From: Shimia aestuarii
GTDB taxonomy: Bacteria; Pseudomonadota; Alphaproteobacteria; Rhodobacterales; Rhodobacteraceae
DNA length: 64,000 nucleotides
NCBI RefSeq assembly: GCF_022814865.1
Contig: NZ_JAKVRD010000006.1
Span: 62,001 to 126,000, forward strand
Direction of reading: 5' to 3'
Shown piece after piece: positions 2,520 to 62,585 of this stretch (positions within the stretch are counted from its first letter, which is position 1; every line of letters begins with the position of its first letter). Both the position numbers and the translations under genes were made by a program. Below the pieces are notes generated by a model that ran no database searches, was not told the origin of the DNA, and saw only the letters and a list, made by a program, of their open reading frames with translations.

Positions 2520-3491
2520 ATGGCAAGACTTTACGACAGCCGAAAAAGGGTAATGGTCACTGGTGGAGCGGGCTTTATCGGTTCGCACTTGATCGACCGG
2601 TTGATCCAGGAAGGGCATGAAGTCCTGTGTGTCGATAACCTCTTTACCGGAACCAAGCGCAATATCGACCATTTGCATGGCAATCCGCGCTTCGAATTCC
2701 TACGCCACGACGTGACATTCCCGCTCTATGTCGAGGTGGATGAGATCTATAACCTCGCGTGCCCGGCGTCACCGATCCACTATCAATATGATCCGGTTCA
2801 AACGACCAAGACCTCTGTGCATGGGGCAATCAACATGCTTGGTCTCGCGAAACGGCTGAGCTGTCCGATCTTTCAAGCCTCGACTTCGGAGGTCTACGGC
2901 GACCCACATCAGCACCCGCAAACCGAAAGCTATTGGGGCAACGTGAATCCGATCGGGCCGCGATCCTGCTATGATGAGGGCAAGCGTTGTGCCGAGACCT
3001 TGTTCTTTGACTACCAGCGCCAGCATGGTCTCGAGATCCGAGTGGCGCGTATTTTCAACACTTACGGGCCCAGGATGCATCACGCTGATGGGCGCGTCGT
3101 GTCGAATTTCATTGTTCAGGCGTTGCGGGGCGAGCCGATTACACTCTATGGCGATGGCAGCCAGACGCGCGCTTTCTGCTATGTGGACGACCTCGTTGAA
3201 GGCATGATCGCAATGATGCAGGCGGGACAAGAGGCGAGCGGACCAATCAACCTTGGCAATCCGGTGGAGTTCAGTATTGCGGAGCTTGCCGAACAGGTGG
3301 TTGCCCTTGTGGGGTCTCGGTCGGAGATCGTCTACAAGCCCTTGCCACAGGACGATCCAACCCAACGCTGTCCCGATATCTCACGGGCGCAATCGCTCCT
3401 AAACTGGCAACCGGTCACCACGTTGGAGACCGGCCTTCACAGTACGGTCGGGTATTTTCAAACATTGCTTCAAGAACTTGAAAGCGCCTAG
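2520..3491 (+). CDS. UDP-glucuronate decarboxylase (UDP-xylose synthase)
   Basis: This extended short-chain dehydrogenase should convert UDP-glucuronate to UDP-xylose and CO2 through a bound 4-keto intermediate. The protein is 323 residues from the ATG at 2520, which follows a G-rich ribosome-binding stretch; upstream in-frame ATGs lack one and would add non-conserved residues. [11 protein letters not shown] (13-23) is the NAD-binding glycine motif. The catalytic region has STSEVYGDP (121-129) and the Tyr-x3-Lys pair in SCYDEGKR (Tyr151, Lys155). The family fingerprint NLACPASP and [10 protein letters not shown] are also present. UDP-xylose or its intermediate would feed the glycan made by the neighbouring transferase. 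The product assignment rests on close family resemblance; related UDP-glucose 4,6-dehydratases are less likely. Confidence 0.92.
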
Positions 3492-3532
3492 CGAGGCAGC
3501 ATCGCAATACCCCAAAGGCATTCGATGCGCAG

Positions 3533-4789
3533 CTAAAACAGGTCCGCGATCAGTTCGATCGGCATGCCCCAGTCCAGCCCAAAGACATGTTTAGGCGCCC
3601 AAACTATGCCGAGCACGAGGAGCAGGAGCGACGATGCCGTAGGGATGGTCTTCGTCTGTCGGATGCGTCCACGCAGAAGCATTAGGGCAAACAATAGTAA
3701 GATCGGGGTCACGTGCATGACCGTTTGCCGGCCCCAATCGAGACCGACGGAGTAGAGCGGCAGGATCGGGAGGACCGATAGGATGATCGGCCAGAGCATT
3801 GTGCGTGTGCCGTTTGTACGGCCAAGTAGGTAGAGCAGCGGCAATAGAAGGCCGGGGTAGATGATGAGGTGCCACGCGCCATAGCCTCTGCCGTAGGCGC
3901 GTTCTGCGACATAGTCGACGGCTGATCCGGCATTGTCCGCTGTGACTCGGATCGCATCTTTGCAGAAGCTTTCGTTCAGACCACGGTCCAGCAATGGCTG
4001 ACACACGTCCATCGCAGAAGCGATCCCAGAGAACCGAATGGGATACCATGTGTGGAAGGCGGCCCACGGTAGAAGGAGCGCAGCCGTGACGATCCATTGC
4101 GGGTTGGCGCGGCCCAAGACGATCCACGCCATGAATAAGAACATCGGCGTCATCATCGCATTCGCGATATGGCCGCTCACACCGAAGGCAAAGAGCAGGC
4201 TTGCAAAAGCGACAACCCAACGGTCCCGGCTTGGGGTGCCGGTCGAGAACAGCAACAGCGCCATCGCGGCGTAGGTGATCATCTCTTTGCGCGCTGTACC
4301 ATGGGGATCGGCGGCCCAGAACAGGAGACAGAACCCGGGAGAAAGCAACAGAAGTGCTGTGAGGCCGGGGAATGGCGATGCCCAAAGGGCACGCAGAACA
4401 CCGAGTGTAATTGCGGTCGCAAGACTACACTGTAGGAGAATTGCGACGCTTAGCGGTGAGACATGCAGCGTATCAGAGATGCGCAGTAGTGCCGAACCAA
4501 ACAGGCCGCGTCGCACATGCACATTTTCGGCGTTGATCAGCCAATCCGCCGTATTCCAAGAATGTCCACCCATCAGGTAGTGCCCCCGAAAAATCATCAG
4601 GATTGTCACAAGGGAAACGATCATGACGAACGCCACGAAAGCGCGGATGTAGCGCTCCGAGCGATCAGGCCCATACCAAGTTTGCGTTGATTCGAAGGGA
4701 TTTCTCATTGTGTCAGTAAGGCTTGAACCGACGGAGGAGACAAGGCTTGAGCCGCTGGCGAGGCGCGCTTTGGATTTCGGTGGCTTCAC
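3533..4789 (-). CDS. Polytopic membrane protein of unknown function, possible glycan polymerase
   Basis: A 418-residue protein made mostly of hydrophobic segments; I count about nine to eleven likely transmembrane helices, beginning near residue 48. I do not recognise a domain. Size, topology and position inside a polysaccharide locus that otherwise lacks a Wzy-type polymerase or flippase in view make a polymerase or a lipid-linked-sugar glycosyltransferase the most reasonable guesses. A short loop rich in polar residues with GGHSWNTADWL follows the first helix and could be periplasmic. The frame opens with a GTG at 4789 without a good ribosome-binding site; the ATG at 4708 is an alternative and would remove a serine-rich 27-residue stretch. 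The gene is convergent with the decarboxylase gene and divergent from the nusG-like gene. Confidence 0.6.
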   Translation of the reverse strand: MKPPKSKARLASGSSLVSSVGSSLTDTMRNPFESTQTWYGPDRSERYIRAFVAFVMIVSLVTILMIFRGHYLMGGHSWNTADWLINAENVHVRRGLFGSALLRISDTLHVSPLSVAILLQCSLATAITLGVLRALWASPFPGLTALLLLSPGFCLLFWAADPHGTARKEMITYAAMALLLFSTGTPSRDRWVVAFASLLFAFGVSGHIANAMMTPMFLFMAWIVLGRANPQWIVTAALLLPWAAFHTWYPIRFSGIASAMDVCQPLLDRGLNESFCKDAIRVTADNAGSAVDYVAERAYGRGYGAWHLIIYPGLLLPLLYLLGRTNGTRTMLWPIILSVLPILPLYSVGLDWGRQTVMHVTPILLLFALMLLRGRIRQTKTIPTASSLLLLVLGIVWAPKHVFGLDWGMPIELIADLF

Positions 4790-4947
4790 CGTGGTGTCAT
4801 TCGTTAGGTGTTAAGTTCAGCGCAAGCATCTCGCGCAGGCTTGGTCGCCTTGTTCATGGAACCTTCATACGCCTTCCGGGAGAGTTCGCTTGCAATCGTT
4901 CGTCTTTGAGCGATATGTCTGCGCCTAGGTTGTTGTAGGGTTTTAGT

Positions 4948-5460
4948 ATGAAAGTTCGCGAGTGTGGCAAGAGTTGGTTTCTGGCGCAGATCAAGCCGAA
5001 CTGCGCAAGAGTAGCCGAGAAGAACCTCGCACAGCAGGGGTTTGCAACGTTTCTTCCGATGCAGGAACAGACCCGCCAGACCGCGAGTAGGTTCATAACC
5101 ACCCTGCGACCACTGTTCCCGGGCTATATCTTTGTGCGTTTCGATGCTGCGAAGGGCCTGTGGCGTAAGGTGAATTCGACCTATGGGATTACACGGCTGG
5201 TCAGCCTTCGCGGAACGCCGACTGCGGTGCCTGATGAAGTGGTTTCGGAACTCATGGAGCGGTGCGACGATCAGGGAAAGCTCGTCCCGATCGCGGATTT
5301 CGCGCCAGGTGACCGCGTTTCCGTCAACAAGGGGCCTTTTGCCGATTTTGTCGCAGAGGTCGAGACTGTTTGCCCGGATCAACGCGTCTGGCTGTTGATG
5401 GAGATCATGGGCGGACAGACGCGCGTTGCCGTCGATGCAAATCAGCTTCGAGCTGGCTGA
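4948..5460 (+). CDS. NusG-family specialised antiterminator (RfaH-like)
   Basis: A 170-residue NusG paralogue. The N-terminal NGN domain spans about residues 8-105, with SWFLAQIKPN at the start and FPGYIFVRFD near residues 56-65, the hallmark of NusG, RfaH and UpxY-type proteins. A KOW-like segment follows (FAPGDRVSVNKGPFADF). Paralogues of this type bind RNA polymerase and let it read through long, poorly translated operons, and they are commonly the first or nearby gene of capsule and exopolysaccharide loci. Here it precedes the amide-ligase pair on the same strand, so those genes and the dehydratase are likely targets. The housekeeping nusG normally sits next to secE and rplK, which are absent. 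I found no match to the enterobacterial ops/JUMPstart element. Confidence 0.85.
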   Translation: MKVRECGKSWFLAQIKPNCARVAEKNLAQQGFATFLPMQEQTRQTASRFITTLRPLFPGYIFVRFDAAKGLWRKVNSTYGITRLVSLRGTPTAVPDEVVSELMERCDDQGKLVPIADFAPGDRVSVNKGPFADFVAEVETVCPDQRVWLLMEIMGGQTRVAVDANQLRAG

Positions 5461-5548
5461 GAAAAACAGCGCAGTATTCAGATTTCGCTTGGAAATTTCG
5501 CTGAAATGTCTTTGCATTGCGAGACATGAGAGAGACTGAATTTGCATA

Positions 5549-6979
5549 ATGGTAAATACGCTCAACGCTTTGACGCATTGCGCCTCGAACGGGCTTGATT
5601 TCGGGCGCATTTTTCGCAGCCAGTTCGTTCTTTCCGAGCGCAACGATATTGAAATTCCCGAATGGCAGACAAAACAGATCGGCGCGTGGCGTTTTCAGCA
5701 TTGTCCTGATCTCCCAGTCAGCGAGCTTTGCGCGGCAGATGGCACAAATGTCGGCTATGTCGCTGGTATTGCGGTTGATCCGCAAGGGCAGGTGGTTGAT
5801 CGCCCGCAGATCCTCCAGAGCAGTCCCGATGATGTGGCTTTCTGGGACGATGTGGAACGATATGTGATTGGCCTTGCGGGGCGCTATGTGGTTCTCGCAC
5901 TGCATGGCCCGACACCGCGACTATTCACCGATCCCGTTGCGGACTATGGCGTTGTCTATGATCCGGAGAGCCGTCTTATCGCGTCTTCTCTGACGCTGGC
6001 GCTGCAACGACCGATACATCCTAATCCGATCTTTCCATGGGCCGAGATCAGGGAAGCCAAGAAGCAGTATTCCCTTGGCCATACGCGCGATTTCTATGTG
6101 AAGCGTCTTCTTGGAAATCACTATCTCGGACTACATGATTTTCGCGCGCGTCGCTTCTGGCCACGTGAAGATAGCGATCTCGAAACCCGCCCTATGGAGC
6201 AGACAGACGCGATTGTAGACGCAATTCATGCCCGACTCTCCCAGAACATCCGTGCGCTGCTTACGATCGGGAATTGCATTTTGCCGCTCTCGGGCGGCCG
6301 GGACTCTCGCTGTCTTCTAGGGGCGGCGATGGAAGATATCCACAAAGCGCAGTTCATTTTTTCATGGCGATTTCACAAACAATCCGGGCTTGATACGGAA
6401 ACCGCGGCAAGGATTTGTGCGCGGCTAGGTCTTGAACATAGGGAGTTCAAATTCCAGAAGGCGAGTTTTGAAGATCGACAGCGGTTCTTTCTCGCCAATG
6501 GCTATGCGACGTTTGGGCCCGAAGTTAAGACGCTGGCGATCCATGAGCAAATACCGGAGAACCTCACCATTCTGCGCGGGAATATCATGGGGATCTTGCG
6601 GGCGACCAACTGGGCGCGACAGCGTGAAGGGGAGCTTAACATTGACCATGGCGTCAAGCGGCTTCGCATCTACGGGGCCGGCGTGACCGATCGCCCGTTC
6701 CAGCTCTGGCATCATGCCTTCTTGGAATGGCACGAGACCCTTCCGCCACAAGGCAAGAACAAGGTGCATGACCTTGCATGGCTCGACATCACACTGCCGC
6801 ATACGCAAGGGGCGCGTTGGCATGGGTTTCCACAGCATTTCTATATGAACCCATTCTGCGATCGGCAGTTGTTGGCGCTTTCTATGCAGCTTCCGCTCGA
6901 ATTGCGTCGCAATGATGAAGCCTACAAGGCCTTGCTGGATCGTACCATTCCAGACCTGAAGGATATTCCCTTTGTCTGA
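5549..6979 (+). CDS. Asparagine-synthetase-like adenylating amide ligase without the glutaminase nucleophile
   Basis: A 476-residue homologue of the synthetase half of AsnB. The PP-loop pyrophosphatase motif is clear: SGGRDS at residues 248-253, which binds ATP and supports acyl-adenylate formation. The region before it (about 1-170) has the outline of a class II amidotransferase fold (GIAVDPQGQV, RYVVLALHG, FTDPVADYGVVYD) but does not begin with the Met-Cys needed for glutamine hydrolysis; the first cysteine is residue 11. This pattern is known in beta-lactam synthetase and carbapenam synthetase, which close an amide with a substrate amine instead of ammonia. The stop codon lies inside the start of the next gene (8-bp overlap), so the two products are made together. 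Substrate and product are unknown; by context it may act on an amino acid, peptide or uronic acid. Confidence 0.8.
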   Translation: MVNTLNALTHCASNGLDFGRIFRSQFVLSERNDIEIPEWQTKQIGAWRFQHCPDLPVSELCAADGTNVGYVAGIAVDPQGQVVDRPQILQSSPDDVAFWDDVERYVIGLAGRYVVLALHGPTPRLFTDPVADYGVVYDPESRLIASSLTLALQRPIHPNPIFPWAEIREAKKQYSLGHTRDFYVKRLLGNHYLGLHDFRARRFWPREDSDLETRPMEQTDAIVDAIHARLSQNIRALLTIGNCILPLSGGRDSRCLLGAAMEDIHKAQFIFSWRFHKQSGLDTETAARICARLGLEHREFKFQKASFEDRQRFFLANGYATFGPEVKTLAIHEQIPENLTILRGNIMGILRATNWARQREGELNIDHGVKRLRIYGAGVTDRPFQLWHHAFLEWHETLPPQGKNKVHDLAWLDITLPHTQGARWHGFPQHFYMNPFCDRQLLALSMQLPLELRRNDEAYKALLDRTIPDLKDIPFV

Positions 6980-9368
6980 CCGACCCACTGAGGCAGGGCA
7001 GGAGACCCATCATTTCCTCGTCTATGGCAGGGTGCAAAAGGTCGGATATCGCAATTGGGCCATGAGCCGGGCTCAGGAAATCGGGCTTACGGGGTGGGTG
7101 CGCAACCGGCCCGATGGGCGGGTCGAGATCATGGCCAGCGGCACGGCACGGCAATGCACCACGTTCGGGACCTTGCTCGCCAGGGGGCCAAAACACGCAG
7201 ACGTGCGCCGCGTTGATGCCCGCCGCGCCAAGCCGAAAATTTTTCAGGCGTTCAGCCGAAAGGCAACCGGACCAAAGACATCTGAAGAGATCAGCGATAT
7301 CATATCGACACTCGATCCAGAATATCTCGCAGCGTGCCAGAAGGCCTATGATGGCTTGCCTCCGGACAGCCGGCGCATGAACCGGTTTCCAAAGAAGCAA
7401 GGAAACTGGCGATTTGGTCAGATCGACAAGGCCGCGGAAACATGCGGTTTGAATTTGGTGCACTTGGGCCCCAATGCGCCGCCAAGCCTACTATGTCGTG
7501 CGGGAGACCGGTCCTTTGGATTGGATGTCACGCGGCCGTCTTGGGTGTTGCCGCTGACCGAAGAACTAAGCAATAACAAGTTCTTGACCAAGGTTCTTCT
7601 CGACGGCCTTAACGTCCCGGTTCCCACCGGAGAGATTTGCCGCACCAAAGAAGAGGCCCTTGCCGCCTTTGAGCGGATAGACGGCGCGGCTGTTGTCAAA
7701 CCAGTCTTCGGAACAGAGGCAAAAGGCGTCACGCTTAACATCAATAGCGAACAAGCTTGTGAGCGCGCGTTTGCCCACGCACAAGCGGAGGGGACGAAGG
7801 ATCTCGTGCTGGTCGAGGACTATGTGCGCGGGGTTGATCTACGGCTCTTGTTGCTCGGGACCACGCTCATCGCGGCATATCTGCGCCTGCCTGCGCATGT
7901 GGTGGGCGACGGGACACAAAGCATTTCCGAGCTGGTGGACGAGAAGAACGCCGCGCGCCAATCCTTGCCGTCGACACAGGAGAGCCAACTCCTCAAGCTT
8001 GGTCTTCGGCAGCGGCGTCTCTTGTCTCTACAAGGCTGCGCGCCAGAGGATCGCCCCGCGCCGGATCAGATCGTGCTTCTTGGTGTCTCTCCGAATTACA
8101 TTGAGGGGGCGGACCTGCTTCCGATTACGGATCAAATTCATCCGGACGTGGTCGCGCTTGCACGGCGCGCCGCGGAAGCAATTGATCCGAAGGGGTTCTG
8201 GGGTGTGGATATCCTCACCGAAGACTTCACAAAGCCACAGCATGAGGCGAAATCCGTACTATGCGAGGTCAATAGCCGTCCTGTCGGGGGCGTGTTCCGT
8301 TACGCCACGCATGGGACGCATGTGCATTTCTTCGAAGAGGCATTCAAGACTGTCATGGCCACGCCAAATGTCTTTCTCCCCGGTGAGGCCAAGCCGCCAC
8401 TCGAGGTTCGCAGGGCACCCAAACCAAACATCGAGGACCGGTTTGAGCAGCAGGTGGCAAACGTCGTCACCAAGATGCGCCCTGATGTTTTTCCGCTGAC
8501 CCGGGATATCCTTGTTGAGCGCGAAGAAAAGGCCACATCGTTCTACCTCTTGAATCCGAACTCGAGCTTTGCGCGTGGTGCGCTTGCACCTTGGCGTTGG
8601 TTGGCGCTGCGCGAAGAGCTTGCTCGAGAAGGCGTTCCTGTGGCCCGAATTCTGGATGCGCAGGACGCTAAACCTTTGGCGAGGAACACCGAGACACCTC
8701 TTGGGCGCGCATTCCTGACAATGGCACGCAGCAAGATGCGCACTCACTGGGTTGAGGATGCGGAACGTCTTGCAAGTCTTGAACGGGACAATCCGGGCTG
8801 GCAGATCAGTTTGGAGACCTTTGAAACACCAAGCAGTCTTGAGGTCGCGATATTGGGTGGGCAGGCGTCCGCAGCAGTTAGGATCGACCACGAGCCGCAC
8901 TATGCGACCGGAAAAGACTCAACCGAAGACCTCCTAGCGCAAGCCATCCTACAGAAACGCGGAGACATCCCGCTCAAACCACGAGAGTTTCGCCGACAGT
9001 TGCGAGATGGCCAAACCATCGCGCCAAAGGATACCCCGCTTGTCCAGCCACAGGCGATTGCGCGGATGGCTGGCACAATTCAGGTCCATGAAGTGATCCC
9101 CAGCGATTTGCGCGGGATTTGCGAGAAACTAATGAAGCACTTGCCGGGTTTCGCAATTGGGACGGCGGTCTTCCGACTTGGTCGCGACGCCCAATGGGCG
9201 CTCTCTGAGCTGCGCGCCGGCATTGATACGAGGCCGTTCCTCCGGCCAGACAGCGGCGGCGCCTTGGATCTTGCGCGATTGCAGGCGGGATATGCATTGG
9301 CCAACCCTGTACGCTACGATGTGGCCTTGTCTCTCGATCTCCTGCAACAAGCGTCCGGATCGGCCTAG
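6972..9368 (+). CDS. Acylphosphatase / cyanophycin-synthetase-like ATP-grasp fusion protein
   Basis: A 798-residue multidomain protein starting at a TTG that overlaps the previous gene by 8 bp. Residues 12-95 are an acylphosphatase domain with both catalytic residues: Arg27 in VYGRVQKVGYR and Asn45 in GWVRNRPDGRVE. After a linker, residues about 180-480 form an ATP-grasp ligase like the N-terminal module of cyanophycin synthetase: AAVVKPVFGTEAKGVT (ATP-binding lysine), VEDYVRGVDLRLL, HVVGDGTQSISELV and the metal-binding CEVNSRP. ATP-grasp enzymes join a carboxylate to an amine through an acyl phosphate, which is exactly what an acylphosphatase hydrolyses. The last 300 residues contain ATGKDSTEDLL and later segments that echo a second ATP-grasp module, but look degenerate. 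Coupling to the AsnB-like gene suggests a joint amide- or peptide-forming pathway. I cannot name the substrate. Confidence 0.8.
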   Translation: MSDRPTEAGQETHHFLVYGRVQKVGYRNWAMSRAQEIGLTGWVRNRPDGRVEIMASGTARQCTTFGTLLARGPKHADVRRVDARRAKPKIFQAFSRKATGPKTSEEISDIISTLDPEYLAACQKAYDGLPPDSRRMNRFPKKQGNWRFGQIDKAAETCGLNLVHLGPNAPPSLLCRAGDRSFGLDVTRPSWVLPLTEELSNNKFLTKVLLDGLNVPVPTGEICRTKEEALAAFERIDGAAVVKPVFGTEAKGVTLNINSEQACERAFAHAQAEGTKDLVLVEDYVRGVDLRLLLLGTTLIAAYLRLPAHVVGDGTQSISELVDEKNAARQSLPSTQESQLLKLGLRQRRLLSLQGCAPEDRPAPDQIVLLGVSPNYIEGADLLPITDQIHPDVVALARRAAEAIDPKGFWGVDILTEDFTKPQHEAKSVLCEVNSRPVGGVFRYATHGTHVHFFEEAFKTVMATPNVFLPGEAKPPLEVRRAPKPNIEDRFEQQVANVVTKMRPDVFPLTRDILVEREEKATSFYLLNPNSSFARGALAPWRWLALREELAREGVPVARILDAQDAKPLARNTETPLGRAFLTMARSKMRTHWVEDAERLASLERDNPGWQISLETFETPSSLEVAILGGQASAAVRIDHEPHYATGKDSTEDLLAQAILQKRGDIPLKPREFRRQLRDGQTIAPKDTPLVQPQAIARMAGTIQVHEVIPSDLRGICEKLMKHLPGFAIGTAVFRLGRDAQWALSELRAGIDTRPFLRPDSGGALDLARLQAGYALANPVRYDVALSLDLLQQASGSA

Positions 9369-9773
9369 TTCTTGTGAAATCCGCGTCGAAACTGCGTCAA
9401 ATCTGCGCCACGCCTAGACCGTTTCAAGGGCTGCTTCATTTCTGTGCATTCCATGAAAGCAAAATGGCTATGCGCATTTGTAACGTGCGGTTAACCAGGC
9501 GCTGGATAGATTCCTTGGTAGAGCGAAGGCCACTAAGTCTCGGCCATGCCTCATGATATTGGACGACCTTTGCTGGCGGGCCTTTGATCTTCTGACTCCG
9601 TTCGCGAGAGCCGAGAAAGCAACCTGCACCGAAACGACGCAGCAGAAGTTGGCCGATGACCGCAGAGATATTTGAGCAGCGTGGAAGTTTTATTGTTCCT
9701 GTCACACCAATACTGTAGGTTGTATGCGCAACAATTGCTTGGCGGCCCTTTCAACGAGTGAGGTTTTTTAACC
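9369..9773. other. 405-bp intergenic stretch before the sugar dehydratase gene
   Basis: No convincing gene is present; the open frames are short, overlap each other and have no ribosome-binding sites. The first 50 bases hold three loose repeats of the form AAATC-GCGTC (at 9377, 9389 and 9399). Near the end, GTTG and CAAC flank six bases (9719-9732). The length and position suggest a promoter region for the dehydratase and Nudix genes, but I could not pick a confident -35/-10 pair and see no intrinsic terminator for the upstream ligase genes. Confidence 0.4.
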
Positions 9774-11738
9774 ATGTCGGACGTCACCAGTTTTCTCGCA
9801 GGCTTGAGCCGCAGAAGTAAGATCAAGCTGCAACTCATATCTGACGCAATGTTGGTCATAGTGTCGTTCTTCGGGGCAATGGCGCTCCGCCTTGAAAGTT
9901 TTCATTTCCTTTTTGACATCGGCATTCTTGGAACGGCCTTCCTGACGGCGCTGTTGACGCTCGCCGTTTTCAAGGCCTGCGGCCTATATCGGGCGCTTGT
10001 GCGCTACGTGACCGGCAAAGTGCTTGTGACGGTTGGGAAGGGTGCGTTGATTTCCGCGGTCCTCCTATATGTATCGAGCCTCATTCTTGACGCGGGCATT
10101 CCGCGCTCTGTGCCCTTCATGCACGCGGTGCTGGTTTTCCTGACGGTAGGCGGACTGCGCTTTTTTGCGCGGCAGTTCTTCAGGAACCCCGAGCAAGTCG
10201 GCAAACGCCCTGTGATCATCTATGGCGCGGGTGAAGCAGGGCTGCAGCTTTTGAATTCGCTGTTTCACGGGCGCGACTATCAACCTGTCGCGCTTGTCGA
10301 TGACAATGAGCATCTGCAGAATCTCACAATCGGAGGTTTGCATGTCTATGCACCCTCCGATATCGAACGCCTCGCGAAGAGTCGCGGGGCGAAGGTCATC
10401 CTTCTGGCGATTCCCAGCATGAGCCGCCAGCGTCGGCGCGAAGTAGTCGAATCCCTTGAAGACCTGCATCTCGAGATCAAGACGATCCCGGGCATTTCCG
10501 AGATTATCAGCGGCAAGGCCAAGATCTCTGAACTTCGCACCGTCACCGCAGAAGACCTTCTTGGCCGCGATCCCGTGGCCCCGGATCCGGAATTGTTGAG
10601 CCACACGATCGACGGCAAGATTGTCATGGTTTCGGGGGCAGGTGGCTCGATTGGCGGAGAGCTTTGTCGACAGATCCTGACCCAGAACCCACACACGCTC
10701 GTTCTCTATGAGATGTCCGAATTCGCGCTTTATGCGATTGAATCCGAATTGACCGAGGCGGCGAAACGTATGGGGTATCAAACGCGCATCGTGCCGATTC
10801 TTGGATCTGTGCAGCATGCCCGCCGTCTTGATATGGCGATCAAGACCTTCGGTGTGCAAACGATCTATCACGCAGCTGCCTACAAGCACGTGCCGCTCGT
10901 CGAAGAAAACGTCATCGAAGGTGTTCGGAACAACATATTTGGCACGCTCGAGATCACACGCGCGGCGCGCAAACATGGGGTCGAGAATTTCATCCTCATC
11001 TCAACCGACAAAGCGGTGCGTCCAACAAATATCATGGGATCGACAAAACGCGTCGCGGAACTGATTTGCCAAGCGCAGGCGCGGGAGACGAGCACCACCG
11101 TCTTTTCCATGGTCCGTTTCGGCAACGTGTTGGGCTCTTCAGGGTCTGTGATTCCGCGTTTCAGTGCGCAGATCGAGGCCGGAGGCCCGGTTACGCTTAC
11201 ACACCTAGATATCACCCGGTATTTCATGACCATTCCCGAGGCATCTCAGCTTGTCATTCAGGCTGGCGCCATGGCGAAGGGCGGCGATGTGTTCGTTCTC
11301 GACATGGGCGAACCGGTCAAAATCCTCGACCTAGCCATGAGCATGGTGAAGCTACATGGCCTCACGCCTTATCTCGTAGAAGACGTCGCACAGATCGCAC
11401 CGGAGAATGGCGATATACCGATCTGTGTGACAGGGCTTCGCAAGGGCGAAAAGCTCTATGAAGAACTGCTGATCGGAAACAATCCGTCTCCGACGAGGCA
11501 CCCTCGGATCATGACGGCTTCAGAGGTCTCGCTTCCGATGAAAGACTTGGCCGCCGTACTTGATCGTCTCTTGGCGGCGTGCACGAACTTTGATCTTCCT
11601 GAGATCATTGCAATCTTCCATGAACTGCCGGTGGACTATCGCCCTTCCCATGATGATATCTCTGATCTAATTTGGTCCGAGGGTATCTCGGTGCCCGCAC
11701 AGACACATCTAAAGATCGTAGAAGCCGCCAATTCATGA
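9774..11738 (+). CDS. Membrane-bound nucleoside-diphosphate-sugar 4,6-dehydratase/epimerase (FlaA1/CapD/WbpM family)
   Basis: A 654-residue polysaccharide-biosynthesis enzyme of the long FlaA1/WbpM/PglF class. Residues about 20-145 carry four hydrophobic helices. A first Rossmann-like segment starts with VIIYGAGEAGLQLL near residue 145, and the catalytic short-chain dehydrogenase domain starts with MVSGAGGSIGGELC near residue 286. The catalytic stretch STDKAVRPTNIMGSTKR has Met in place of the usual Tyr (Met-x3-Lys), which is the signature of UDP-GlcNAc 4,6-dehydratases of this class. The product would be a UDP-4-keto-6-deoxy-HexNAc used for a deoxy or diamino sugar in the surface glycan. The gene ends with an ATGA overlap with the Nudix gene. 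Whether it also epimerises cannot be told from sequence. Confidence 0.9.
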   Translation: MSDVTSFLAGLSRRSKIKLQLISDAMLVIVSFFGAMALRLESFHFLFDIGILGTAFLTALLTLAVFKACGLYRALVRYVTGKVLVTVGKGALISAVLLYVSSLILDAGIPRSVPFMHAVLVFLTVGGLRFFARQFFRNPEQVGKRPVIIYGAGEAGLQLLNSLFHGRDYQPVALVDDNEHLQNLTIGGLHVYAPSDIERLAKSRGAKVILLAIPSMSRQRRREVVESLEDLHLEIKTIPGISEIISGKAKISELRTVTAEDLLGRDPVAPDPELLSHTIDGKIVMVSGAGGSIGGELCRQILTQNPHTLVLYEMSEFALYAIESELTEAAKRMGYQTRIVPILGSVQHARRLDMAIKTFGVQTIYHAAAYKHVPLVEENVIEGVRNNIFGTLEITRAARKHGVENFILISTDKAVRPTNIMGSTKRVAELICQAQARETSTTVFSMVRFGNVLGSSGSVIPRFSAQIEAGGPVTLTHLDITRYFMTIPEASQLVIQAGAMAKGGDVFVLDMGEPVKILDLAMSMVKLHGLTPYLVEDVAQIAPENGDIPICVTGLRKGEKLYEELLIGNNPSPTRHPRIMTASEVSLPMKDLAAVLDRLLAACTNFDLPEIIAIFHELPVDYRPSHDDISDLIWSEGISVPAQTHLKIVEAANS

Positions 11739-12223
11739 CCTCACTCACTCAATCGCGTCGCGGGCTTGGAGGTCGGCTCGCGGGCCGATTGCTGCACTGG
11801 TTCTTTCTCACAAAGCGTGGACTGACTATTGGGGTCCGTGCGGTTGTGCGTTGTCGGGATGGAAAATTCCTCTTATTGCGCCACACATATCTGCCGGGCT
11901 GGCACTTTCCGGGAGGTGGGGTCGAGCGGGGAGAGACCGCCGAAACGGCGCTTGGCAACGAGCTTTTTCAAGAAACCGGCCTACGACTTGCGCAGAAACC
12001 AGTGTTGCACGGTGTGTTCTTCAACAAGGGTGTGAGCAAGCGGGATCATGTCCTGGTGTACCTCTGCGAAGTGCAGGGAGAGGCGCCGACGAAGGCTTCG
12101 AGCATCGAAATCGCTGAATACGGTTTCTTCGCAGCGGACGAACTTCCGCAAGATATTGATCCGGGCACTGCGCGACGCATCCGTGAGATCGCAGAAGGGG
12201 CAGAGCGCCACGAAGCTTGGTAA
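11735..12223 (+). CDS. Nudix hydrolase
   Basis: A 162-residue Nudix protein whose ATG overlaps the dehydratase stop (ATGA), so it is translationally coupled to a sugar-modifying enzyme. The Nudix box runs GGGVERGETAETALGNELFQ followed by ETGL. It keeps the glutamates that bind metal, but the Arg of the consensus REL-x-EE-x-G is replaced by Asn (GNELFQETG). A hydrophobic segment lies at residues 15-30, before the core. Coupling hints at hydrolysis of a nucleotide sugar or clean-up of a nucleotide by-product, but Nudix substrate cannot be read from sequence. It ends 10 bp before the convergent tonB gene. Confidence 0.8.
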   Translation: MTSLTQSRRGLGGRLAGRLLHWFFLTKRGLTIGVRAVVRCRDGKFLLLRHTYLPGWHFPGGGVERGETAETALGNELFQETGLRLAQKPVLHGVFFNKGVSKRDHVLVYLCEVQGEAPTKASSIEIAEYGFFAADELPQDIDPGTARRIREIAEGAERHEAW

Positions 12224-12233
12224 GCGACGAAGT

Positions 12234-13055
12234 CTAGCGTGATTTGATGGGCAGTCGGAAAGACTGGGTCGTGAGGTTCAGCCCGGCAGGCGCTGCGGGA
12301 AACCGGCCCGCTTTGCGGACAGCGGCCAAGGCGATCTTGTCGAGGCGCGCATTGCCAGAGCTTTTCGCAAGCGACACATCGCGGAGCGTTCCGTTGCTCG
12401 CCACTGTAATGGTCACGATCGCTGTTCCGCGACCTGCGCCGCGCGGTGTGCTGCGGGCGATCTTGGCCCTGATCTGACCGCCCCAGCGCGACAAGAGAGA
12501 CGACCTTTGCGCCTTGCTAAGAGTGGCAGTGTTGGATTTCTGACTATTGCCCCGCGCCGCGCCATCGCCGCTGCCTTCGGCGCGTTTCGCATTGACCTGC
12601 GCCGCTTCCTTGGAGGCCTGTTGTTTCGGTTTGGGCTTTGGCTTTGGGGCCTCTGCTTTCTTCGGTTTGGGAGTCGGCTTGGGCTCGGGTTTCTTTGGCG
12701 GCGCCGGATTGGCAATCGGCACAGGCGGCGCGTCTGGGCGTTGCGGCATATCTGGCAACTCGAGCAAAGGCGTGGCCTTAGGGGGCGCCTCCTGAAGCGG
12801 TTGCGGCGAGATGGGGGCGCTCTGCGGCGCATCCGGCATCTGCATCGCGGTCTCAACAACGTCATCCGTTTCTGGCGGACGATCCCATGTCTCGACCATT
12901 CTCTGAATACTGGCGGATGACGGATTGATGGTCAGAAGGGACTCGCCGCCTGCTCCGGCACTCGACTCACCCGTTTCGGCCTCTGGCGCCCAGATCGCCA
13001 GATGCGCGACGGTTGCAATCGCGAGGAAAGCGGAAGCTTCGGCAATCACACGCAT
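12234..13055 (-). CDS. tonB: TonB energy transducer
   Basis: A 273-residue TonB-family protein. It has one N-terminal membrane helix (about residues 5-22), a long periplasmic spacer rich in proline, lysine and glutamate (about 75-150, with repeats such as KPEPKPTPKPKK), and a C-terminal TonB domain (about 185-273) containing the typical GxGTAIVTITVASNGTLRDV and KIALAAVRKAGRFP segments. TonB passes proton-motive energy from ExbB-ExbD to outer-membrane receptors. It is the last gene of the heme-uptake operon, 2 bp after the second exbD, so a heme receptor encoded elsewhere is the probable partner. Confidence 0.88.
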   Translation of the reverse strand: MRVIAEASAFLAIATVAHLAIWAPEAETGESSAGAGGESLLTINPSSASIQRMVETWDRPPETDDVVETAMQMPDAPQSAPISPQPLQEAPPKATPLLELPDMPQRPDAPPVPIANPAPPKKPEPKPTPKPKKAEAPKPKPKPKQQASKEAAQVNAKRAEGSGDGAARGNSQKSNTATLSKAQRSSLLSRWGGQIRAKIARSTPRGAGRGTAIVTITVASNGTLRDVSLAKSSGNARLDKIALAAVRKAGRFPAAPAGLNLTTQSFRLPIKSR

Positions 13056-13057
13056 AG

Positions 13058-13438
13058 CTACCTCGACGAGGAAATGAGTTTAACGTTGCGCACACCTGCA
13101 GCGGCCAGACGCGGCAAGAGAGAGGCAATGCGGCTTGCATCAACGGCTTTGTCAGCACGGATCAAGAGCGGTTCATTCTCGCCAAGCCTCGCAAATCCAG
13201 CAAAGACATCGTCATCCTTCAAATCGCCATATACGAGGTTGCCGTCGGCAGAGATATAGAGAATGTGTTGACCCTCTGCCGGGGTTTCAGCCGTGGACTC
13301 CGGGGGGGTGATATCGAACGGATCAGGCGGGGTAATCTGTGCCGTCATCAGAAAGAAGATCAACAGCAGAAAGACGACATTGATCATCGGCACGATACTT
13401 TCGCGCATGGGGCGTTTGGCTGGCCTATCCAAGATCAT
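13058..13438 (-). CDS. exbD: ExbD-type energizer subunit, second copy
   Basis: A 126-residue ExbD/TolR family protein. It has a short cytoplasmic N-terminus, one membrane helix (about residues 16-36) with the conserved PMINVVFLLLIFF stretch and a periplasmic domain. The position normally held by the proton-carrying Asp (as in PMIDVVFLLL of the neighbouring copy) is Asn here, which is notable. It may pair with the other ExbD to form a mixed unit in the ExbB pore. It sits 6 bp from the first exbD and 2 bp from tonB. Confidence 0.85.
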   Translation of the reverse strand: MILDRPAKRPMRESIVPMINVVFLLLIFFLMTAQITPPDPFDITPPESTAETPAEGQHILYISADGNLVYGDLKDDDVFAGFARLGENEPLLIRADKAVDASRIASLLPRLAAAGVRNVKLISSSR

Positions 13439-13444
13439 CAGCGT

Positions 13445-13822
13445 TTACTCCACCAGAACCAGCGTCTCATAACCCGCCTCAGCAAGGCTTTCCATGACAC
13501 TCACGACACGCTGCAAATCGGCTTTGTCTTTGGCGCGCAGGATGATTGCGTCATCATGCGACAGCATCAAGGCACCAAGTTCAGGAAGGAGCGTTGCCAG
13601 CTCCATCTCCACCCCGTTGAGACGCACCGCATCAGGAAGGATGTCGATCAAACGCGGCGGACCTTCATACGGGGTTTCCGAAGACGCGCTCAGGGGCAGG
13701 TTGATCTCAACATCATGCCCAAAACGCGACGCCAGCATAAAGAAGACCAGCAGCAGAAAGACCACGTCAATCATCGGGGTCAGGCTGGGCTTGCGTCGCC
13801 GACGTGGAGGGCCGAGATGCAT
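13445..13822 (-). CDS. exbD: ExbD-type energizer subunit, first copy
   Basis: A 125-residue ExbD/TolR protein with a basic N-terminus (PPRRRRKPS), a single membrane helix containing the canonical SLTPMIDVVFLLLVFF motif with the proton-translocating Asp, and a periplasmic C-terminal domain. Together with ExbB it forms the proton channel that energises TonB. It lies 5 bp after exbB and 6 bp before a second exbD-like gene. Because this copy keeps the key Asp while the other has Asn, this one is probably the proton-conducting subunit. Confidence 0.88.
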   Translation of the reverse strand: MHLGPPRRRRKPSLTPMIDVVFLLLVFFMLASRFGHDVEINLPLSASSETPYEGPPRLIDILPDAVRLNGVEMELATLLPELGALMLSHDDAIILRAKDKADLQRVVSVMESLAEAGYETLVLVE

Positions 13823-61787: not shown

Positions 61788-62585
61788 TTAGCCGATACGG
61801 CCAGTGATGTAGCTTTCGGTGCGCTCATCACGGGGGTTGGTAAAGATCGTTCCGGTGTCGTCGTATTCCACGAGGTTGCCGAGGTGGAAGAAGGCGGTCT
61901 TCTGGCTGACGCGGGCGGCCTGCTGCATCGAGTGGGTCACGATGACAACGGAATACTGCGCGCGCAGTTCGTCGATGAGTTCTTCAACCTGAGCCGTGGC
62001 GATGGGGTCGAGTGCCGAGCAAGGTTCATCCATGAGGAGGACCTCCGGCTCGGTCGCGACCGCACGCGCGATGCAGAGGCGCTGTTGTTGGCCACCGGAG
62101 AGGCCGGTGCCGGGCGCATGCAGGCGGTCCTTGACCTCGTCCCAGATTGCACCGCGGCGGAGCGATTTTTCGACAATCACGTCAAGGTCGGCCTTGTTCT
62201 TCGCGAGGCCGTGGATACGCGGGCCATAGGCGATATTGTCGTAGATCGATTTGGGGAACGGGTTCGGTTTCTGGAACACCATGCCCACCTTGGCGCGCAG
62301 TTGCACCGGGTCGACCTTTTTGTCGTAGATGTCCTCGCCATCAAGCAGGATATCGCCTTCGACACGGCACACATCGATCGTGTCGTTCATGCGGTTCAGG
62401 CAGCGCAGGAAGGTCGACTTGCCACAGCCCGAGGGGCCGATGAAGGCGGTGACGGTCTTGTCTTCGACCTCGATATCCACGTCCTTGATGGCGTGCGTCT
62501 CGCCATAATAGACCTGAACCTTGTTGGCGGAAATCTTGATGTCTTTCTGGTCCACGTTGGCCCCCGGGTTCGGTGCGTCGTACAT
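61788..62585 (-). CDS. pstB: Phosphate ABC transporter ATP-binding protein
   Basis: A 265-residue ABC ATPase. Walker A is GPSGCGKST, the signature [14 protein letters not shown] and Walker [13 protein letters not shown], all standard for PstB. It energises high-affinity phosphate import through PstC-PstA. It lies 17 bp after pstA and 14 bp before phoU. Confidence 0.97.

Follow-up and report, generated by a model that had tools for sequence, protein, structure and literature searches.

An asparagine synthetase-like gene and an overlapping acylphosphatase/ATP-grasp fusion gene in Shimia aestuarii: a candidate amide-bond module

AsnB and beta-lactam synthetase adenylate a carboxylate, and neither beta-lactam synthetase nor carbapenam synthetase (CarA) is known to use glutamine. 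ATP-grasp domains of the kind found in cyanophycin synthetases (CphA1, CphA2) and GshF make acyl phosphates, and HypF is an example of an acylphosphatase domain held within a larger enzyme. The window analysed here is a 64,000-nucleotide stretch of the Shimia aestuarii genome (3.97 Mb in 70 contigs; positions 62,001 to 126,000 of contig NZ_JAKVRD010000006.1, here C6), in which two overlapping genes, A and B, bring these enzyme kinds together. The A gene product has an AsnB-like fold, and the B gene product joins an acylphosphatase domain to a CphA/GshF-type ATP-grasp domain, so that two amide-forming ligase folds lie side by side, as the original prediction from the sequence had proposed. The reading favoured here, which is put forward tentatively, is that A and B form a portable, co-expressed amide-bond module that uses carboxylates and amino acids to make a small amide or a peptide-like compound. 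The features of the two genes are as follows.

5549..6979, plus strand: gene A, 476 amino acids, ATG start, an enzyme of the AsnB/beta-lactam synthetase fold without an N-terminal Cys
6290..6310, plus strand: PP-loop (pyrophosphate loop) motif SGGRDSR of A, residues 248-254, from the alignment of 19 A rows
6972..6979, plus strand: overlap of the A stop and the B start, 8 bases (TTGTCTGA), the same overlap as in the congener genome G208
6972..9368, plus strand: gene B, 798 amino acids, TTG start, with an acylphosphatase, an ATP-grasp and a degenerate ATP-grasp domain
7011..7253, plus strand: acylphosphatase domain of B (about residues 14-94; Arg27, Asn45), Pfam Acylphosphatase 3.4e-21 over residues 14-93
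7554..8306, plus strand: first, intact ATP-grasp domain of B (about residues 195-445), phmmer match to cyanophycin synthetase 7lgn, 3.2e-33 over residues 195-437
8607..9299, plus strand: second, degenerate ATP-grasp domain of B (about residues 546-776), hhalign of first against second with probability 83%, E 9e-6

The coordinates, domains and neighbours originally assigned to the two open reading frames (ORFs) agree with the Pfam and NCBIfam matches. Both long frames persist in G208, where A is 65% and B 48% identical to the window copy, and A and B are therefore genes rather than chance ORFs. The G208 copy of B starts with ATG and overlaps A by 8 bases as in the window. For the translational coupling that had been predicted, this shared overlap stands, and co-expression of the two genes would follow from it.

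The A gene product matches the Pfam family Asn_synthase (6.1e-8, 33.1 bits with a cut-off of 21), with the best stretch at residues 247-309. Four residues of the PP-loop (G250, D252, S253 and R254) are invariant in 19/19 rows of the A alignment, and the first two residues of the motif vary in some. A phmmer search of the Protein Data Bank with the single A sequence returned nothing at E<=5, and the 19-row profile gave weak matches only, among them CarA (0.0037) and beta-lactam synthetase (0.0053). Foldseek analysis of the AlphaFold model of A (predicted local distance difference test score, pLDDT, 92) identified 23 matches with E<=0.001, all of them carbapenam synthetase, beta-lactam synthetase, hydroxyamidotransferase TsnB9 or asparagine synthetases. 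These extend over about the full length (template modelling score, TM-score, 0.50-0.61 by query length; 11-16% identity), and the best hits are carbapenam synthetase 1q15, beta-lactam synthetase, TsnB9 and AsnB. The modelled protein combines the two-domain fold with the SGGxDS PP-loop of AsnB and beta-lactam synthetase, and an N-terminal glutaminase-like domain is present in the model as a fold. Residue 2 of A is Val (the protein begins MVN), which bears out the predicted lack of Cys2, the N-terminal Cys nucleophile of AsnB and other glutamine-dependent amidotransferases; an internal residue, Cys15, is kept in 16/18 rows. The full-length two-domain fold, the PP-loop and the lack of a usable glutamine Cys are shared with CarA and beta-lactam synthetase, from which A differs in its low identity (12-16%) and perhaps, as far as a weak alignment shows, in lacking a Lys where E. 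coli AsnB has K449. Gene A appears to encode a glutamine-independent enzyme of the adenylating amide synthetase fold, and its chemistry is not certain.

Members of the gene A family (e.g. at loci L095-L098, L100 and L071) are asparagine synthetase-like proteins, often solitary in Rhodobacteraceae, with a conserved SGGxDSR-type loop and no recognised partner. Several congeners carry a member at one conserved chromosomal place.

The B gene product begins with the intact acylphosphatase domain that had been predicted, and its Arg and Asn are kept in 4/4 B proteins bearing the domain. Structural matches of this region to acylphosphatases reach a TM-score of 0.96 by target length. The domain has the acylphosphatase fold with the catalytic Arg and Asn. 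HypF likewise carries an N-terminal acylphosphatase domain and matches B weakly (2.5e-4), but it differs from B in its other partner domains and in its reaction.

The first ATP-grasp domain (Pfam ATP-grasp_3, 3.7e-8) is nearest by sequence and structure to those of CphA1, CphA2 and GshF, with GshF-type enzymes matched more weakly than cyanophycin synthetases. Seven residues of this CphA/GshF-type domain, including the conserved Lys, Glu and Asn, are invariant in the five B-type rows (Lys203, Lys243, Glu282, Arg291, Asp413, Glu432 and Asn434), and CphA1, CphA2 and GshF are also the best structural matches of the AlphaFold model of B (pLDDT 81, low in residues 474-523). Synthesis of cyanophycin or a cyanophycin-derived polymer would be consistent with these nearest solved structures; it is nonetheless a very improbable role for B. 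The NCBIfam cyanophycin synthetase models score 168-177 bits on residues 196-437 against cut-offs of 850-877, and for this reason B is not considered a cyanophycin synthetase. A Pfam scan of B gave no Mur-ligase, GshA or GNAT domain match, and unlike CphA1, CphA2 and GshF, B carries an acylphosphatase domain and a degenerate second ATP-grasp domain. In the tree described below its ATP-grasp domain also falls outside the presumed cyanophycin synthetase rows. The original prediction had allowed that B might prove to be an ordinary cyanophycin-type enzyme, and the lack of a Mur-ligase match together with this placement speaks against that outcome.

The degenerate second ATP-grasp domain is a feature beyond those first predicted. 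The last 345 residues of B have no Pfam match at E<=1. In the hhalign comparison listed above, the first ATP-grasp domain was represented by a 10-row profile and the C-terminal part of B by a 5-row one, and the two aligned in order. Of the metal-binding Glu-x-Asn of the first domain, the second copy has lost the Asn in 5/5 rows and the Glu in 3/5, and the C-terminal domain is therefore described as degenerate. The secondary structure of the AlphaFold model fits a second ATP-grasp domain, in a part of the model that rests on 5/35 alignment rows.

A tree of ATP-grasp segments was built from 53 of 60 segments, after three duplicates and four near copies were dropped, and was rooted at the midpoint. 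CphA rows were assigned by size and similarity, and GshF rows are absent. The five B rows form one clade (100/99), and five Virgibacillus rows form another (100/99). Both clades fall within a 14-row set (96/94), apart from the presumed CphA rows and from a separate 7-row clade (100/100) that holds the annotated Ngg row. Also in the set are the two copies of CphA/GshF type from an Agrobacterium protein that contains several ATP-grasp domains. The tree program warned of possible false joining of two long branches, L015 and one Agrobacterium copy, and of unusual composition in four Virgibacillus rows.

The placement of the Ngg row bears on the N-acetylglutaminylglutamine amide (NAGGN) osmolyte pathway, in which the asparagine synthetase-like amidotransferase gene asnO adjoins the gene of an ATP-grasp ligase with an extra domain, Ngg. 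The layout resembles that of A and B, and an annotated example is found in Haematobacter. The pathway is already contradicted by the domain content of A and B and is hardly credible here: A has no N-terminal Cys, the extra domain of B is an acylphosphatase with no GNAT match, the Ngg model scores 116 bits on B against a cut-off of 569, and the Ngg row sits in its own clade.

The same two domains as in B occur in one chain in Virgibacillus alimentarius (NZ_JFBD01000026.1; L034:6180-15253), with an ATP-grasp domain of the same 14-row set. That locus encodes five ATP-grasp genes, four of which have a C-terminal acylphosphatase domain over the Pfam cut-off, with the fifth just below it. At the two ends of their range, as read by eye, are an intact domain (9502-11004) and one without the catalytic residues (12164-13723). 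A PGA_cap gene lies among the ATP-grasp genes, and a TupA-like ATP-grasp gene and a glycosyltransferase gene are also present. The Virgibacillus fusions differ from B in their opposite domain order, in having no recognised AsnB-like partner and in lying among glycosyltransferases; the locus may make the peptide or polyglutamate portion of a polymer at the cell surface. Because the two domains are fused there too, in reverse order, the comparison suggests that acylphosphatase and related ATP-grasp domains have a working link and that their pairing is no accident.

Three further observations concern relatives of the ATP-grasp domain. The Agrobacterium tumefaciens plasmid pAt (L130:1026-6008) encodes a 1660-amino-acid 'hypothetical protein' with three ATP-grasp regions, one YheCD-type and two CphA/GshF-type, beside a type I secretion adaptor. 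In a protein of a Microvirga ossetica plasmid (L128:6368-9382), encoded close to type I secretion genes, a cyanophycin synthetase-like ATP-grasp domain is joined to PGA_cap. The neighbours of two single-domain ATP-grasp relatives (L014 and L015), read by eye, have no common theme.

The acylphosphatase/ATP-grasp fusion was found in four of the 25 genomes of the genus (the window's, G208, G209 and G203). G171, from another genus, encodes a tandem ATP-grasp relative of B without the acylphosphatase domain, and it represents the only other genus in which a B-type protein was found among 394 family genomes from 393 genera. This patchy occurrence is counted in favour of a portable module. No further full-length relative of B was found in profile searches of 198 family genomes (E limit 1e-3), 394 family genomes (1e-45), 385 class genomes (1e-30) and 398 phylum genomes (1e-30), samples that overlap; the best two first-look candidates per genome were scored (at most five in the 198-genome sample), so that misses are possible. 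The remaining matches were to the ATP-grasp part alone or to separate acylphosphatases, and those at class and phylum level, the window's own aside, were to ATP-grasp only. Among 72,556 plasmid records, no place covered 80% of B. Genes in unannotated loci were called by a simple in-house method, and the start of the B-like gene of G171 is unsure.

Gene A adjoins B or lies within 6.4 kb of it in all five B-bearing genomes (the window's, G208, G203, G209 and G171). The order in G203 and G209 is A, a sulfotransferase-like gene, then B, the label of the middle gene resting on a weak Pfam match in G209 (E 0.083) and on no match in G203. The two genes of G171 are 6.4 kb apart on one strand. In each case B was accompanied by a nearby A, whereas many A genes stand without B; B thus seems more dependent on a nearby A than A is on B. 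As a separate observation, the B relative of G171 (L070:16260-19555), which has no acylphosphatase domain, adjoins a divergent Ddl-like ATP-grasp gene, which with the nearby A makes three ligase-type genes at a single locus.

The immediate neighbours of the pair in the window are as follows.

4948..5460, plus strand: NusG/RfaH-type antiterminator, upstream neighbour, Pfam NusG 1.6e-19; NCBIfam RfaH 118.7 bits, below the 144.5 cut-off
9774..11738, plus strand: UDP-sugar 4,6-dehydratase-type protein, downstream neighbour (PglF/WbpM-like by name only), Pfam Polysacc_synt_2 1.6e-118; homologues elsewhere occur without A/B

Further upstream the window encodes a bacterial sugar transferase, a DegT aminotransferase, a hexapeptide transferase, a flippase-type protein and three glycosyltransferase-family proteins. 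This setting led the original prediction to tie the pair to a polysaccharide locus, and it is the basis of the chief rival explanation, in which B and A together would link amino acids to a surface polysaccharide, at a uronic-acid or amino-sugar residue, as in teichuronopeptide. The position of the pair between an RfaH-type antiterminator and a sugar dehydratase, downstream of the sugar transferase, aminotransferase, flippase-type and glycosyltransferase genes, agrees with such a role, as do the Virgibacillus fusions, which share the 14-row set with B and lie with TupA-like, PGA_cap and glycosyltransferase genes. The other loci do not repeat this setting. No polysaccharide family was recognised in 24 scanned neighbour genes around the pairs of G203, G209 and G171 and on the A side of G208, where the contig ends beside B; with the remaining genes read by eye, linkage to polysaccharide genes was conserved in 0/4 other loci. 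In G208, G203 and G209 the best-matching dehydratase homologue and the pair are on separate contigs. The antiterminator is present at E<=1e-15 in four of the 25 genus genomes (the window's own, G199, G201 and G210) and absent at that limit from G208, G203 and G209, and so is not conserved with the pair. A/B are missing both from the G214 locus, where the dehydratase has the ExbB/ExbD/TonB-like neighbours seen in the window, and from the G201 locus, where the antiterminator adjoins sugar-nucleotide genes (gene names given by eye from sequence starts). Because neither the other loci nor the dehydratase and antiterminator homologues show such linkage, the polysaccharide setting looks particular to the window copy, and the proposed tie to a polysaccharide locus is not supported. 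Glycan decoration is accordingly rated unlikely, while keeping a real share of the probability. Of the two products first suggested, a small peptide or amide is somewhat the more probable, ahead of an amino acid attached to a glycan.

The neighbours of the pair otherwise differ among the five loci, as would suit a portable unit. G208 has CheW-, CheR- and chemoreceptor-type proteins, and an IS4/5-type transposase gene about 6 kb from A. The G203 pair lies near molybdopterin oxidoreductase, arginase-family, AraC-type, ankyrin-repeat and YcaO/thiazole-oxazole-modified microcin (TOMM) proteins, and the G209 pair near hybrid histidine kinase, chemoreceptor, citrate-transporter-type and subtilase-type proteins. 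Acetolactate-synthase-like, aldehyde dehydrogenase, TcuA-like, lyase, GntR-type and Hint/RTX proteins are the neighbours in G171.

The YcaO/TOMM cluster of G203 (L069:14763-19900) is preceded by a Gly/Cys-rich, repetitive protein of 632 amino acids, which is possibly an unusually long precursor of a ribosomally synthesised and post-translationally modified peptide (RiPP). It matches a thiocillin-family RiPP model (8.8e-14, 51.5 bits with a cut-off of 25), a score that low complexity may inflate.

The presence of this cluster near the G203 pair would suit a RiPP pathway, in which A would resemble a lasso cyclase or an amidase, and B would be a graspetide-like ligase whose substrate is a ribosomal precursor. 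Asparagine synthetase-like enzymes that amidate or cyclise RiPPs have been described (PMC13060819). The B model also has structural matches to the graspetide ligase PsnB, at low TM-score. The YcaO cluster is found in one genome only, and no small ORF (20-110 amino acids, flanks of about 0.1-1.5 kb) is conserved near the pair in the five genomes, so that a conserved RiPP precursor was not encountered; each of the 16 small-ORF matches is an antisense or out-of-frame stretch within A, B or the sulfotransferase-like gene. A RiPP role is thus quite improbable.

The Rfam scan of 3400-12300 gave 0 matches at gathering scores. Promoter-like sites (2 against 2.2 expected) and terminator-like sites (6 against 5.5 expected) are about as many as chance would give and are uninformative. 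Anti-phage defence models gave 0 matches at E<=0.1 for A, B, the G203 sulfotransferase-like protein and the G171 Ddl-like protein.

Several observations weigh against a shared amide-bond module. Matches to A occur in 12/25 genus genomes, eight of which have no B, and in 15/198 family genomes, of which 13 have no B (the exceptions are the window's genome and G171); three of the family matches (G005, G022 and G087) are weak, partial ones limited to the PP-loop part. Since many genomes carry A and no B, the function of A need not depend on B. The B-linked A proteins fall into two groups (window, G208 and G171; G203 and G209) and form one clade in 0/200 bootstrap trees, from an alignment of 20 rows that leaves out the matches of G103, G007, G087, G005, G022 and G218. 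No transporter or regulator common to the five loci was recognised, and the window copy itself sits inside a polysaccharide locus (sugar transferase, flippase-type and glycosyltransferase genes). In the column of K449, the catalytic Lys of E. coli AsnB, 18/18 A rows show no Lys (15 gaps and three other residues; one of the 19 alignment rows was left out), at 11-12% structural identity to AsnB, which makes the comparison weak. The window A protein ends at this column, at an identity too low to trust one column. With no counterpart of this Lys, A may not form amides as AsnB does. Editing by the acylphosphatase domain, which the module reading includes, is a guess.

The distribution of A also bears on whether A and B are neighbours without a functional partnership, their pairing inherited by chance. 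Genes A that occur without B and the two groups of B-linked A would be expected in that case, yet no B was found without a nearby A, and the same 8-base overlap occurs in two species. By our own estimate, the chance that three lineages each have the two genes within 10 kb is about 1e-7 (0.005 cubed, for one A match per genome of about 4 Mb). Chance pairing is therefore regarded as improbable. The original expectation that A and B would be conserved as neighbours in related genomes thus holds for the B-bearing genomes; it does not extend to A, which often occurs without B and, where linked to B, does not form one clade.

For the amide-bond module favoured here, we infer the product and the role of the acylphosphatase domain from domain content, overlap and linkage. 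A and B would be co-expressed through their overlap. B would activate a carboxylate as an acyl phosphate and then join an amino acid to it, while the acylphosphatase domain would clear stalled or wrong acyl phosphates, as an editing step. The degenerate ATP-grasp copy may help to bind substrate or to assemble the enzyme. A would then make a further amide with a free amine or ammonia, and the polysaccharide genes around the window copy would be coincidental. The stronger proposal is unlikely, though worth stating: a new two-step amide pathway, in which a ligase with built-in acylphosphatase editing works with a glutamine-independent asparagine synthetase-like partner and leads to an undescribed class of compound.

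The ligase kinds encoded by A and B are already known, and the A/B pair and the fusion would be a variant of them. Neither the fusion nor the pair was described in the titles and abstract openings listed by the literature searches, which covered few subscription papers and so make this a weak negative. We know of no ATP-grasp ligase for which proofreading by a fused acylphosphatase is known. An acylphosphatase fused to an ATP-grasp ligase as an acyl-phosphate proofreader would, if true, be a new idea that one point mutant could test, and the pair, if it makes a small compound, would be a two-gene source of a new amide or peptide.

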